Origin: Exiguobacterium sp. s122
GTDB lineage: Bacteria > Bacillota > Bacilli > Exiguobacteriales > Exiguobacteriaceae
DNA length: 64,000 nt
Direction of reading: 5' to 3'
NCBI RefSeq assembly: GCF_018618475.1
Contig: NZ_JACSMD010000001.1
Coordinates: forward strand, 434,001 to 498,000
The notes beneath the pieces were generated by a model. It was not told where the DNA came from. It did no database searches and saw nothing but the letters and a program-made list of their open reading frames with translations. This document shows positions 29,513-35,113 of the stretch, piece after piece (positions within the stretch are counted from its first letter, which is position 1; each line of letters begins with the position of its first letter). A program made the position numbers and the translations under genes.

Positions 29513-30088
29513 TCAGACCGCGGACACATGCCCCGGTCTTTTCGCGCACCTCTCAACGAACCGCTCGAACACATCCCGTCCTTCGGGCGTCCCGATTGAT
29601 TCAGGGTGGAACTGGACGCCATATGTCGGATGGTCAGGATGCTCGAGCGCCATAATGACACCGTCTTCTGTGCGAGCGGTGACGGGAAGTTTCGTCTCTT
29701 GGACGATGAGCGAGTGATAGCGCATGACGTCGAGCGATTCTCCATCAAACAAGACGGACGAGCTCGTCAAAATGCGCGACATCTTCCCGTGCATGACTTG
29801 ATTTGCTCGGCCGACCGTCCCGCCGAACGCCTCGGCGATGACTTGATGGCCGAGACAGATACCGAGTATGGGAATCACGCCGGAGAGCTCCCGGACGACA
29901 TCGAGCGAGATACCAGCGTCACGCGGGCCGCCGGGGCCAGGGGAGATGATGATCCCGGATGGATTGAGGTCCCGAATCGCCTCGACCGAGAGTTCATCGT
30001 TCCGGACGACGATGACGTCACTGAACCGGGCGACGTCTTGATAAACGTTATACGTGAACGAGTCGTAGTTGTCGATGAGTAGAATCAT
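29513..30088 (-). CDS. trpG: Anthranilate synthase glutamine amidotransferase subunit
   Basis: A 191-residue class I glutamine amidotransferase. The oxyanion and nucleophile motifs are SPGPGGPRD and GICLGHQVIAEAFGG (Cys ~79), and the His-Glu pair is in FHPESIGTPEG. It provides ammonia from glutamine to TrpE. The start overlaps the trpE stop by 4 bp. In many Bacillales one such subunit also serves PabB for folate; its pairing with TrpE here favours tryptophan synthesis. Confidence 0.92.
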   Translation of the reverse strand: MILLIDNYDSFTYNVYQDVARFSDVIVVRNDELSVEAIRDLNPSGIIISPGPGGPRDAGISLDVVRELSGVIPILGICLGHQVIAEAFGGTVGRANQVMHGKMSRILTSSSVLFDGESLDVMRYHSLIVQETKLPVTARTEDGVIMALEHPDHPTYGVQFHPESIGTPEGRDVFERFVERCAKRPGHVSAV

Positions 30089-31416
30089 GCGAACACCTCC
30101 AGAAGGGATTTGGCCTTATGCAGCGTCTCTTCATATTCCGACACGGGGTTGGAGTCATAGACGATCCCAGCGCCGGCTTGCACATGGGCCGTGTCGCCTT
30201 GCACGATCATCGTCCGAATGGCGAGCGCGAAGTCGAAGCCGCCCCGGACGTCGAGATACCCGACCGCCCCGGCGTACACTTCGCGTTTTACCGTCTCGAG
30301 CTCGTCAATGAGTTGCATCGCCCGAATCTTCGGTGCCCCGGAGACGGTGCCGGCCGGAAGACAGGCACGCAACGCGTCAATCGGATTCAAGTCGTCACGC
30401 AGCTCGCCTGCGACTTCAGAGACGAGGTGCATGACGTTTTTGAAGCGCTCGAGCTCGATTTGTTTCGGAATTGTGACGGTGCCGACCTTTGCGACGCGGC
30501 CGATATCGTTTCGCCCGAGGTCAAGTAGCATCCGGTGCTCGGCGAGTTCTTTCTCGTCGGCGAGGAGCGACTCGCCGTGACGAATGTCTTCCTCGACTGT
30601 CTTGCCGCGCGGGCGAGTACCGGCAATCGGGTTCGTCGTCACCCGGCTCCCGCTTACTTGGACGAGGCTCTCCGGGGAGGCACCGAGGACAATCGCTTCC
30701 CCGAGATCGATATAGAATAAGTACGGGCTCGGGTTCTGTTTCCGGAGCGTCCGGTAAAAGTGGAACGGGTCACCGGTGAACGTCGCGTCGATCCGTTGCG
30801 ACAAGACGAGTTGGAACACTTCGCCGGCGAGAATCGCTTCTTTCGCCTTCAAGACGCGTTCGATGAATTCCTCTTTCTCGGTCAAGATGCGCTCGCTCGT
30901 CCGAACGACCGGTTCGAGCGTGTGTGTCTGTGCCGTCTCGAGTTGGTGCTGAATCTCGTCGAGCCGCTCCATTGCGTTCGTCTCGCCGGTGTCGATCAAG
31001 ATGACCTGTTCCTCGAGGTGATCATACAAGACGATTGTCTCGTAGCGTTGGAACAACGCATCCGGCAAACCACGCGTCTCGCTCGGCGTATTCGGGATCG
31101 GTTCATAGACGCGCTGCATGTCATAACCGATATAGCCGATGGCACCACCGATGAAAGGGTACGGGACGTCCGGAACGTCACGGGTGATGAGCGCGGACAA
31201 ATGGGCGAGCGGGTCGTCCGTCTCAAGCGTTCCGTTTGCGTCCGAAACGCGCTTCCCGTCGACTCGTATCGTCTCGACCGGGTTCGCCGCGACAATCGAG
31301 TAGCGACCATGCTTGCCTTCGGCGCGGCTTTCGAGCAATACTTTTCGTTCACCTTCTAGACGGTGGAAAATAGCCACCGGTGTCAGTTCATCGCCATTGA
31401 TGATTCGTTGTTCCAT
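30085..31416 (-). CDS. trpE: Anthranilate synthase component I
   Basis: A 443-residue enzyme converting chorismate and ammonia to anthranilate. The N-terminal LLES at residues 27-30 is part of the tryptophan feedback site. The catalytic part has NPIAGTRPRG, LDLGRNDIGRVAKVGTV and PAGTVSGAPK. The Ala in 'PIAGTRPRG' indicates TrpE; PabB has Lys there. The start is the ATG at 31416 behind ATAAGGAGG. No other trp genes follow trpG. A tryptophan T-box (31986-32264) reads toward trpE, but a complete gene on the other strand lies between. Confidence 0.94.
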   Translation of the reverse strand: MEQRIINGDELTPVAIFHRLEGERKVLLESRAEGKHGRYSIVAANPVETIRVDGKRVSDANGTLETDDPLAHLSALITRDVPDVPYPFIGGAIGYIGYDMQRVYEPIPNTPSETRGLPDALFQRYETIVLYDHLEEQVILIDTGETNAMERLDEIQHQLETAQTHTLEPVVRTSERILTEKEEFIERVLKAKEAILAGEVFQLVLSQRIDATFTGDPFHFYRTLRKQNPSPYLFYIDLGEAIVLGASPESLVQVSGSRVTTNPIAGTRPRGKTVEEDIRHGESLLADEKELAEHRMLLDLGRNDIGRVAKVGTVTIPKQIELERFKNVMHLVSEVAGELRDDLNPIDALRACLPAGTVSGAPKIRAMQLIDELETVKREVYAGAVGYLDVRGGFDFALAIRTMIVQGDTAHVQAGAGIVYDSNPVSEYEETLHKAKSLLEVFA

Positions 31417-31436
31417 AAGATTGACCTCCTTATAAT
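31408..31436 (+). promoter_or_regulatory. Sigma-A promoter of the DUF3885-like gene
   Basis: TTGTTC, 17 bp, TATAAT. It covers the start codon and ribosome site of the divergent trpE. Confidence 0.65.
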
Positions 31437-31458
31437 GGATAAAGAAAGGGGAAAGCAC

Positions 31459-32016
31459 ATGCAAATTTTAAGACCAGACGAGTTCTCATGTGACCCGTTG
31501 ACACATCATATCGAGCTTGAAGAAGAATCATCACCTTACTTGAATTCGGACGTATTAAATCCGGCTTATTTTCAGTCGGTCGTGAAGAAGTCGCATGATC
31601 TGGTAGACGCCTTGTTCGAGGAAGGAGATCCTATCCTTCTCGTCTATCATGTATACGGTTCTCCGTTTCAACCGACATATCTGTCCCGATTCATTCGTAA
31701 TCGAGAGGCACGGTACAACACAACGTTGACACAGACAGCTTTGGGTGAAGAAGCAGTTTGGACAGCTACAGTCCCGATTCCAGACAAGAAACAGCTTCGA
31801 CTCCATTCGCTTTTAGAAGCGATTTGTCACCAAGACTTCCACTTCACGCCACGACTTTGTCGACGATGTGGCACGTGTCCTTCTGTACAACTCATTCATC
31901 GAACGAAAGGATACGTGTTATTTATTTATGATGACCGTGGCGCCTATATCCGTGGGACATCAATCGAACAACTTCAAGCCATCCAACAAAAAATCTCCTC
32001 GTCCTTCATGCCCTAA
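31459..32016 (+). CDS. DUF3885-like protein lying between trpE and its T-box
   Basis: A 185-residue soluble protein. The part around ILLVYHVYG, VWTATVPIP, and IYDDRGAYIRGTS follows the DUF3885 pattern (a conserved YDDRG near the C-terminus). It has four Cys (CRRCGTC around 145-151). The start is the ATG at 31459 behind GAAAGGGG. Its last codons form one arm of the T-box terminator, and transcripts from the T-box would be antisense to the whole gene. Function unknown. Confidence 0.75.
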   Translation: MQILRPDEFSCDPLTHHIELEEESSPYLNSDVLNPAYFQSVVKKSHDLVDALFEEGDPILLVYHVYGSPFQPTYLSRFIRNREARYNTTLTQTALGEEAVWTATVPIPDKKQLRLHSLLEAICHQDFHFTPRLCRRCGTCPSVQLIHRTKGYVLFIYDDRGAYIRGTSIEQLQAIQQKISSSFMP

Positions 32017-32264
32017 CGGACATGAAGGACGAGGAGATTCCCCGTGTTGCCACCTTCGTTGAGAGACGACACGTCTCCCCACTCATCGCGAACGATCATT
32101 CGCTGTCCTCGTTAACGGGAGGACCCGTCAGAGCCTACGTATCGGTCTGAACGCTCAAAAGCCCATTCATGCGGGCGACGTCACCGGTTCACATCGACCA
32201 CCGGCTTTCTGGAGACGCCACGTCCGCATTACTCTTCTTTCTCATCGCGAGTTCGTATGATGTT
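31986..32264 (-). ncRNA. Tryptophan T-box riboswitch
   Basis: Read on the minus strand. It has the stem I K-turn/AG-bulge segment GATGAGAAAGAAGAGTA (32228-32248 region), the distal loop segment with AGAAAGCCGGTGG and GAACCGG, and the specifier region GAATGGGCTTTTGAGC with specifier codon TGG (Trp) at 32163-32165. The T-box sequence GAAGGTGGCAACACGGG (32041-32057) pairs with uncharged tRNA. A terminator stem with perfect 19-bp arms (31992-32010 and 32021-32039) ends in a T run at 31986-31991. It should allow readthrough when tRNA-Trp is uncharged. Downstream lies, first, the antisense of the DUF3885-like gene and then trpE. Confidence 0.93.
31992..32039 (-). terminator. T-box terminator stem
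   Basis: Perfect 19-bp arms with T run on the minus strand only. The left arm is also the last seven codons of the plus-strand gene; on the plus strand there is no T run. Confidence 0.92.
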
Positions 32265-32270
32265 ATCGTC

Positions 32271-32299
32271 ACTTTACAGGTCAGAGGAGAACTTGTCAA
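32271..32299 (-). promoter_or_regulatory. Sigma-A promoter of the T-box transcript
   Basis: TTGACA (32294-32299), 17 bp, TAAAGT (32271-32276), giving a start near 32264, just before stem I. Confidence 0.75.
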
Positions 32300-32352
32300 T
32301 ACACAGACACACGAAAATCTTGAAATCGAGATGAAATCTTTTCGTAACATAA

Positions 32353-32383
32353 TTGAAACATTTTCTGTCATATCCCGTATACT
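32353..32383 (+). promoter_or_regulatory. Possible promoter of the subtilase gene
   Basis: TTGAAA, 19 bp, TATACT. The spacer is longer than ideal. Confidence 0.4.
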
Positions 32384-32428
32384 ATATCCAAGGTGATTCA
32401 CCTAATACTTGGAAAAGAGGGAAACAAG

Positions 32429-35113
32429 ATGAAACGAATGGTGCAACGGACTGTTGCGACATTGCTCGCGCTCCTACTCGTCGTCTCGCTCGTCCCACCG
32501 CGCATTCATGCCGATGCCGGTGCCGGGATGAAGCAGGCGACACGGCTTGAAGCCGGAAAAGCAGTCGCCTTTACGACAGGCGTCGAACCGGTCAATACAT
32601 ACTGGTTCAAGATGGAACGAAACGGTCCAAGTGACATGACCCATATGGAGATTGTCATGGAAGCAACGAAACTCGCTCAAATTTCGGTCTATCCGAGCGC
32701 GGAGATGGCCGCGAAGGACGAGACGTTCTATCTGTATCGCTCAAGCGCCTCGAAAGAGGACGGCAAGGCGACGGTTCACCTCCCGTATGCATGGGAAGGA
32801 CCATACTATGTGAAAGTCGAGTATATGCCGATGGAGACGCCGGACATGTACCCGCCGGAAGAAAGCTTCTCGCTTGAGGAAGAGGAAGATTCGGAAGAAC
32901 CACCAGGTGAGCCGGATATGTCCGAGTTCGCCTCAGACATCGAGCTCGTCTATAATCCGGTTAAACTACCCGTGAAGTATGAACAACAAGAAGGCGGCAT
33001 GTGTGCCGTCGAAACGATCTTTACGTCAGGAAACGACAAAAAGACGATGCTCGAGTTGATTCGTCGCGTCCAGACAGGTGTCCTCAACCAGTCGGAGGAA
33101 GGGCGTGAGCTCGCGGCACTCTACTACCGCGCTTCGCCATATCTCGTCAAAGCGGTCACGTTCGATAAAACGAAACGTCAAGCGGCCTATCAAGACCTCG
33201 TGACGTTAAAACCGCTCTTGACGGCACTCGTCGACCAGAAACAGCACACGGTATCAGCGAAAGAGGCGACCGCGATTAACCGTCTGCACGGACTCGTCAA
33301 CCAGAGCGTACCGGAAGGCTTGAAGGCGGATATCGCGACGGTCGCAGGGAACGTCGGCATGGATCAACTCGCGGGCACACCGCTCACGGACGTGTTCAAC
33401 CGCGTTGGCATCACAGTGAACGTCTCGGACGCGCCGCGTTATATCGTCAAATACAAGTCGTCACCGAGCCAATCGATTGGCAAGATGAACGCGCTACGTG
33501 ACGTCTCGGCCGAACGTCTCTCAATCGGGGCATCGGGTGACCACTTCGCCCTCGTCGACGTCGAGGCTGCCACGTCGAAGACGCAAGCATCCGCCCAGGC
33601 GATGTTGAATAACGACCCGAACGTCGAGTATATCGAGCCAATCGAGAAATACTCCGCGTTCATGGCCGACCCGACGTACAGCTATCAATGGTCGGTCAAC
33701 AGCCGCTCCATCTTGAAGCCGTTCGCGGATGCGGGCATCGGGCTCGACAAGTATGAGGCACTTAAACTGAAGGCCCGTACTGTCAAAGTCGCCGTACTCG
33801 ATACCGGGGTCGACCACCGACTCCTCGACTTGAAAGGAAAAGTCGATGTCGCGAACGGCAAAAACTTCGTCGACCCGAACGGGGAAGGCGATGCGATCGA
33901 TGATCACGGTCACGGTACACACGTCGCCGGCGTCATTGCAGCTACGCAAAACAACGGCACATCGATGCGCGGCATGATGCCGAACGTCTCAATCTTGCCG
34001 GTCAAAGTACTCGATTCATGGGGTTCTGGGGAAACGGACCAAATCGCACTCGGTATCAAGTACGCTGTTGATGCAGGGGCGAAAGTCATCAACATGAGTC
34101 TCGGGGGTTCAGAGAGCCGCACGATCGGTTACATGTTGAAGTATGCCCATGACCGCGGCGTCATCGTCGTCGCAGCAACAGGGAACGACGGGCAGTCACT
34201 CGTCTCGTATCCGGCCTCATCGAAGTATACGATCTCGGTCGGCGCGACGAACACGTTCGGTCTCGTCAGCGACTATTCAAACTTCGGCATTAACGTCGAC
34301 GTCGTAGCTCCGGGATCGAAAGTCGCGAGTCTCGTACCGGATGGTAACGTCGTCTATATGGACGGGACGAGCATGGCGACACCACACGTCGCCGCGACAG
34401 TTGCACTTCTCGTATCACAGCACCCACGGATGACGGTCGAAGGTGCTCGCTCAATCCTTCGCCGTTCGGCTGAACCACTCGCCTTCACAGGTGGCGACGC
34501 GCCAAAAGATCCGCGCATGTCTGATGGGATGCAGTACGTGCTCGACGAGTTAGAGACGCCGCTTCTCCCGTACTATGACGTCGTCAGCGGATACGGGAAA
34601 GTAAACGTTTATCGTGCCGAGTCGATGCTTCAAATCGCGCCGAAGCCTGGTCGCGTGTTCGACAACGCGCCAGTGTTCACGGTCGCCGCGAAACCAGGAA
34701 CGGTCGTCAACGTCTATAACGGAACAAAACGTATCGGTTGGGGAACGGCTCGAAACGGAAACGTGACGATGTCGCTCTCGCCACAAAAACCGGGCACCGT
34801 GCTCCGTGTGACGTATACGAACGGTTCGCTCTTCACAGGCGAGCGCATCACGGTCGCGAAAGGACTCCGTCCGAACGCACCGACTGTCACGGCACCTCGT
34901 GCGAACGCGAAACAAGTGTCCGGGAAAGCACAAGCCGGCATGACGGTCGTCGTCCGAGACGCGCAAAAACGCGTCATCGGCAAATCGAAAGTGACACTGA
35001 ATGGTACGTACACGGCGAAGACGCGCGCATTGAAAAAAGGTGAGCGCTTATCCGTCCATGTGGAAGATGTGACGAAAAAAGTCAGCAAGATCACGACGGT
35101 CATCGTCAAATAA
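32429..35113 (+). CDS. Secreted subtilisin-like serine protease with Ig-like C-terminus
   Basis: An 894-residue exported protease. Signal peptide (about 1-29); N-terminal ~300 residues of unknown structure with an acidic patch; an inhibitor I9-like propeptide (PRYIVKYKSSPSQ to NDPNVEYIEP, about 335-405); peptidase S8 domain with catalytic D ~457 (AVLDTGVD), H ~495 (HGHGTHVAG) and S ~648 (DGTSMATPHVA). The end carries two Ig-like modules (about 750-894) like those in the exported proteins at 39688 and 49408. No sortase or SLH anchor, so it is released or held by the N-terminal region. Start behind AGAGGGA. Confidence 0.94.
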   Translation: MKRMVQRTVATLLALLLVVSLVPPRIHADAGAGMKQATRLEAGKAVAFTTGVEPVNTYWFKMERNGPSDMTHMEIVMEATKLAQISVYPSAEMAAKDETFYLYRSSASKEDGKATVHLPYAWEGPYYVKVEYMPMETPDMYPPEESFSLEEEEDSEEPPGEPDMSEFASDIELVYNPVKLPVKYEQQEGGMCAVETIFTSGNDKKTMLELIRRVQTGVLNQSEEGRELAALYYRASPYLVKAVTFDKTKRQAAYQDLVTLKPLLTALVDQKQHTVSAKEATAINRLHGLVNQSVPEGLKADIATVAGNVGMDQLAGTPLTDVFNRVGITVNVSDAPRYIVKYKSSPSQSIGKMNALRDVSAERLSIGASGDHFALVDVEAATSKTQASAQAMLNNDPNVEYIEPIEKYSAFMADPTYSYQWSVNSRSILKPFADAGIGLDKYEALKLKARTVKVAVLDTGVDHRLLDLKGKVDVANGKNFVDPNGEGDAIDDHGHGTHVAGVIAATQNNGTSMRGMMPNVSILPVKVLDSWGSGETDQIALGIKYAVDAGAKVINMSLGGSESRTIGYMLKYAHDRGVIVVAATGNDGQSLVSYPASSKYTISVGATNTFGLVSDYSNFGINVDVVAPGSKVASLVPDGNVVYMDGTSMATPHVAATVALLVSQHPRMTVEGARSILRRSAEPLAFTGGDAPKDPRMSDGMQYVLDELETPLLPYYDVVSGYGKVNVYRAESMLQIAPKPGRVFDNAPVFTVAAKPGTVVNVYNGTKRIGWGTARNGNVTMSLSPQKPGTVLRVTYTNGSLFTGERITVAKGLRPNAPTVTAPRANAKQVSGKAQAGMTVVVRDAQKRVIGKSKVTLNGTYTAKTRALKKGERLSVHVEDVTKKVSKITTVIVK

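Follow-up and report, generated by a model that had tools for sequence, protein, structure and literature searches.

The trpEG locus and its leader

The window, a stretch of 64,000 nucleotides from Exiguobacterium sp. s122, encodes trpE and trpG on its minus strand. A tryptophan T-box leader reads toward them on the same strand, and a plus-strand gene of the DUF3885 family lies between the leader and the genes (Table 1). A preliminary description of this DNA had claimed a complete minus-strand T-box directed at trpE, with promoter, TGG specifier, T-box motif and terminator with T run, and had proposed an Rfam covariance search as a check. That search bears the claim out, matching RF00230 over the full length of the model at 32254-32022 with 117.5 bits against a gathering score of 93. 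The specifier, TGG for Trp, fits the regulated genes trpEG. T-box leaders act by termination when the cognate tRNA is charged and by formation of an antiterminator when it is uncharged. The two structures are mutually exclusive here (terminator, -39.5 kcal/mol; antiterminator, -11.6 kcal/mol), with the CTCCTCGTCCTTC arm common to both. The terminator, with its T run, was described correctly apart from its length: the stem, at 32037-31994 and followed by TTTTTT, has 20 pairs rather than the 19 first counted. A match to the Rfam family mir-255 at 31984-32045, which scored below the gathering score of that family, corresponds to the terminator hairpin and was discarded.

Table 1. Features of the trpEG locus in window coordinates; the named loci (n=14) come from a contig scan with the trpE alignment
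Feature	Position	Strand	Basis
trpG, glutamine amidotransferase component, overlapping the trpE stop	29513..30088	-	open reading frame; adjoins trpE in 14 of 14 named loci
trpE, anthranilate synthase component I, 443 aa	30085..31416	-	orthologue in 19 of 19 genomes; Shine-Dalgarno (SD) sequence AAGGAGG
Putative DUF3885 promoter, TTGTTC-17-TATAAT; -35 within trpE start codons, -10 opposite trpE SD	31408..31436	+	conserved with the insert
DUF3885 gene, 185 aa, head-to-head with trpE; entire length antisense to predicted readthrough RNA	31459..32016	+	PF13021; dN/dS
Intrinsic terminator, 20-bp stem and T6, common to the last codons and stop of DUF3885	31986..32039	-	terminator scan, folding
T-box leader, tryptophan (RF00230)	32022..32254	-	117.5 bits, E 2.4e-25
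T-box motif GAAGGTGGCAACACGG, 5' side of the antiterminator	32042..32057	-	Rfam alignment and folding
TGG (Trp) specifier codon in its loop, preceded by TGAA	32163..32165	-	Rfam alignment
T-box promoter, TTGACA-17-TAAAGT	32271..32299	-	TTGACA-17-TAAAGT in 18 of 19 congeners, TACAGT in one

About 570 nt separate the T run from the trpE ATG. The plus-strand gene within this spacing had been called intact and DUF3885-like, and both the spacing and the gene hold up: it scores 79.9 bits with Pfam model PF13021 (DUF3885; cut-off 23), over profile positions 31-182 of 189. The start codons of DUF3885 and trpE lie about 42 nt apart. At each of the 18 remaining T-boxes in the genome, a same-strand gene follows 2-67 nt past the Rfam end, except at the leading member of a tandem pair, where the interval is 303 nt, and no opposite-strand open reading frame lies between the T-box and its gene. 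The trp pathway is split in this genome, with a trpD-like gene at a separate locus (L099, G000:C1:120293-120800) preceded by two tandem T-boxes, both with TGG specifiers.

Distribution across the genus

The locus was compared across 19 Exiguobacterium genomes, that of the window (G000) among them. Every genome has trpE, and every trpE has a T-box above the gathering score upstream. In 12 genomes the T-box adjoins trpE, with 80-89 nt from motif to ATG. In the other seven (G000, G007, G009, G010, G012, G015 and G016), an opposite-strand DUF3885 gene occupies the same site and the distance is 615-652 nt. Because the same gene order recurs in seven of 19 genomes, the layout is not a matter of chance. 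The seven fall into three trpE lineages. The nearest relatives of the window by trpE (G004, G005 and G018; 95-96% identical) have no insert and a T-box that adjoins trpE; the sequence TTTTTTATTTTAAGGAGG of G005 and G018 corresponds in the window to TTTTTTG, then the insert, then TTATAAGGAGG. Whether the T-box directly abuts trpE in related genomes had been posed as a question at the outset, and for these sister species, as for the rest of the 12, the answer is yes.

In the sister genus, all 11 sampled loci (L121-L131) have tandem T-boxes, the second of which adjoins trpE. From these loci and the insert-free close relatives of the window, the insert-free arrangement is probably the ancestral one. 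The two genera also differ in the number of T-boxes before trpE, with one in the window's genus and two in tandem in the sister genus. The arrangement seen in the window probably arose by insertion at one site, between the terminator and the trpE SD, within the genus, followed by spread or by repeated loss.

The history of the insert is patchy: when mapped onto the rpoB, trpE and T-box trees, it calls for no fewer than 4-5 changes. Between lineages the DUF3885 copies are about 55% identical, with synonymous sites saturated or nearly so; for trpE, identity to the window copy is 86-87%. An old insertion that was repeatedly lost, or old alleles exchanged by recombination, would fit these comparisons better than a single recent event. 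In G007 (L028), trpE clusters with that of G010, but the other sequence type is seen in its T-box and terminator; this mismatch suggests recombination at the locus.

The inner gene and the function of the leader

Six of the seven DUF3885 copies are intact, and among intact copies dN/dS, where computable, is 0.14-0.27. Judged by these values, the inner gene is real and under purifying selection. The remaining copy, in G010 (Exiguobacterium sp. J17977; L109 2441-2957), is interrupted near codon 150, with matches continuing in another frame, and is a decaying copy. Together with the patchy occurrence of the insert, this broken copy suggests that the inner gene is dispensable. One disrupted copy in seven might also be expected if the reading frame were no gene at all and the T-box an ordinary one with a long leader, but the Pfam score, the dN/dS values, and an SD sequence and TATAAT element tied to the presence of the insert leave that reading hardly credible.

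The preliminary description had also given the inner gene a promoter of its own. We place a candidate at TTGTTC-17-TATAAT; the form TTGTTN-17-TATAAT occurs in six of the seven insert genomes, while TATAAT is found there in none of the 12 insert-free genomes (Fisher p 0.00026, a value that ignores shared descent). At the other end of the gene, the stop codon TAA of the window copy sits in the terminator loop, so that the 3' arm of the terminator consists of the gene's last codons, as had been claimed. All six intact copies end within the T-box terminator, the others with TGA in the 5' arm. The T-box lies at the 3' end of DUF3885 and antisense to it, which is the layout of an antisense-acting riboswitch. 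On the DUF3885 strand, a scan of the window turned up no intrinsic terminator, and the transcript of that gene therefore probably continues antisense to the T-box. Plus-strand transcription through 32016-32430 could cross the T-box and reach an S8-type protease gene at 32429.

Relatives at least 50% identical to the window DUF3885 were found only at the trpE/T-box site. A scan of genome contigs with the DUF3885 protein as query returned nothing, and none of 16 other DUF3885 loci has a T-box. A fold model (pLDDT 78, built from 4 sequences) gave no Foldseek matches with E below 0.001 and VIA Z no higher than 4.4, and so was uninformative as to function; the best E value of a PDB sequence search was no lower than 0.08. 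The insert was also considered as phage cargo and rejected; there were no phage matches, and plasmid matches occurred only at 25-29% identity.

T-box scores show no difference between genomes with the insert (mean 117.0 bits) and those without (117.4 bits). All seven insert genomes keep the antiterminator pairing and the T6 tract, and the terminator stem was computed in five of them and read in the other two; terminator energies for G010, G015, G017 and G008 were left unused because T6 in the loop ends the computed stem early. In three insert-bearing genomes, G012, G016 and G009, promoter and T-box differ by 0.4-1.1%, as against 19-20% at fourfold sites of trpE. The insert-free pair G001 and G002 has a similarly low ratio of T-box to fourfold change. 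The slow change of the T-box could come in part from recombination, but dS of the adjacent DUF3885 gene is 0.17-0.23 in the three insert-bearing genomes.

A T-box so well maintained must be of use, and trpE comes next on its strand; readthrough would then have to cross all of DUF3885. We infer firmly, from the genome comparison, that trpEG remains the target of the T-box despite the intervening gene, and the original suggestion of readthrough to trpEG, antisense to that gene, gains backing from the strong selection on the T-box in insert-bearing genomes, the lack of a promoter above chance in the insert, and the insert-free sisters. In the window scan, the T-box terminator was followed by no further intrinsic terminator on its strand before trpE. 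An alternative, in which trpEG is transcribed from a promoter inside DUF3885 with T-box control lost, could draw on weak promoter-like sites on the trpE strand such as GTCACA-18-TAAAAT at 31494-31465; yet in all seven insert genomes every candidate falls below the 95% level of shuffled sequences in a scan with an approximate, hand-set weight matrix. The candidates also differ in sequence and are mostly not co-located between lineages, and T-box decay is absent in seven of seven. We regard such uncoupling as unlikely. Less likely still is a T-box whose main role is now to regulate DUF3885 by antisense RNA while trpE depends on something else. Its location and direction relative to the 3' end of that gene do match those of antisense-acting riboswitches (PMC9943018), but this reading requires a trpE promoter that the scan of the insert did not find, and the same T-box adjoins trpE in the 12 insert-free congeners, as it does in the 11 genomes sampled from the sister genus.

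In the predicted readthrough RNA (window 31420-31465), CCCCTTT, the complement of the DUF3885 SD, lies just 5' of the trpE SD AAGGAGG. Pairing of the two is weak but possible in all seven insert genomes (-3.8 to -5.2 kcal/mol for the last 50 nt), and in local folding the unpaired fraction of the trpE SD, 0.15-0.42 in insert genomes, is lower than in most insert-free genomes.

Predicted antisense readthrough and its relation to known systems

The reading we favor, and consider probable, is a noncontiguous operon under T-box control in which DUF3885 would be crossed antisense and to some degree opposed. RNA polymerase that starts at the T-box promoter would halt at the terminator as long as tRNA-Trp is charged. 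Once the tRNA is uncharged, the antiterminator would form, and transcription would run on to trpEG through about 570 nt in which all of DUF3885, together with its promoter, lies on the opposite strand. Because the overlap takes in the whole gene and its promoter, each readthrough event would oppose DUF3885, whether by polymerase collision, by promoter occlusion, or by cleavage of duplex RNA by RNase III, for which the genome has a gene. DUF3885 transcription running back across the T-box may in turn dampen the T-box. Counting against this reading, together with the weak SD pairing, is Rho, which the genome also encodes; the untranslated stretch of about 570 nt is a likely Rho target, which could shorten the antisense transcript. 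In seven of 19 genomes an opposite-strand gene falls within the span of the predicted transcript, as in noncontiguous operons. The layout also fits an excludon, in which a long antisense RNA that serves one gene represses its divergent neighbor, often one of opposing function; here the predicted RNA would cover DUF3885 and serve trpEG. Silencing of DUF3885 by readthrough is plausible.

Readthrough could also reach trpEG through a DUF3885 gene that sits harmlessly between terminator and ribosome binding site and is not meaningfully regulated, a serious contender to which we give somewhat less than an even chance. The insert is patchy (seven of 19), one copy is broken, and the 16 other DUF3885 loci, none with a T-box, offer no conserved link between DUF3885 and Trp genes; a comparable transposase case is termed spurious in PMC9943018. 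This reading must contend, however, with selection that maintains DUF3885, with the finding of relatives at least 50% identical only at the T-box/trpE site, and with full-length antisense and a shared promoter region that make some interference hard to avoid. A stronger form of regulation, which we offer as speculation, is a tRNA-gated double-negative switch: Trp starvation would turn trpEG on and silence DUF3885 through antisense transcription of its full length, DUF3885 transcription over the T-box would restrain trpEG, and the layout, in which the T-box terminator forms the 3' end of the silenced coding sequence, would have behaved as a single exchangeable locus, acquired or swapped on several occasions. 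A tolerated insertion accounts for the patchy distribution just as well as a selected switch does.

Only a handful of noncontiguous operons and riboswitch-gated antisense RNAs have been worked out so far. Here uncharged tRNA-Trp is a defined signal that should set whether DUF3885 is crossed antisense, and species pairs that differ in the presence of the inner gene at one site form a natural experiment. Such pairs allow one to ask if a chromosomal gene is regulated by antisense readthrough or simply tolerates it. They also raise the question of how well a biosynthetic operon can be driven by a T-box when about 570 nt of untranslated antisense RNA must first be made and the bacterium has Rho. 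The effect should be easy to test because close relatives lack the inner gene.

The general kind is already known, both as antisense-acting riboswitches (PMC9943018) and as noncontiguous operons (PMC7154746), and this prior description reduces the novelty that can be claimed. A search of the open literature, including the main text of PMC9943018, found nothing that unites a T-box with a noncontiguous operon. The novelty lies in a case that recurs, is conserved and comes with natural controls lacking the insert. The canonical Trp T-box of Bacillota, at trp genes and trpS, is identical in kind in its leader, specifier, promoter, terminator and target, but there the target lies within tens of nucleotides of the terminator. 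Noncontiguous operons were described from Staphylococcus aureus and proposed to be widespread (PMC7154746). In the menE-menC-MW1733-ytkD-MW1731 operon of that species, as here, an opposite gene lies inside the transcript and is fully overlapped, and reciprocal interference is expected; here, however, the inner gene stands between a tRNA-sensing leader and the first gene, the overlap would depend on the charging of tRNA-Trp, and co-transcription is a prediction.

In the survey of PMC9943018, 107 T-boxes are antisense against 15,851 sense. Antisense-acting riboswitches (SAM at ubiG-mccBA in Clostridium acetobutylicum, B12 at pocR in Listeria) resemble this locus in that a terminator-type switch sits at the 3' end of a gene on the other strand and governs RNA antisense to it. 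The Exiguobacterium locus differs from them in keeping its original sense target beyond the opposite gene, and several species show the states before and after. The same survey (Fig 3A) gives the case of Bacillus thuringiensis YBT-1518, where a transposase lies between a T-box and a tryptophan transporter and is called a chance insertion. There too an opposite-strand gene has entered between a T-box and its canonical target, and relatives keep the canonical form. That case, however, was reported as a mobile element in a single genome, whereas in Exiguobacterium a gene under selection, with no sign of a mobile element, occupies one site in seven species-level genomes.
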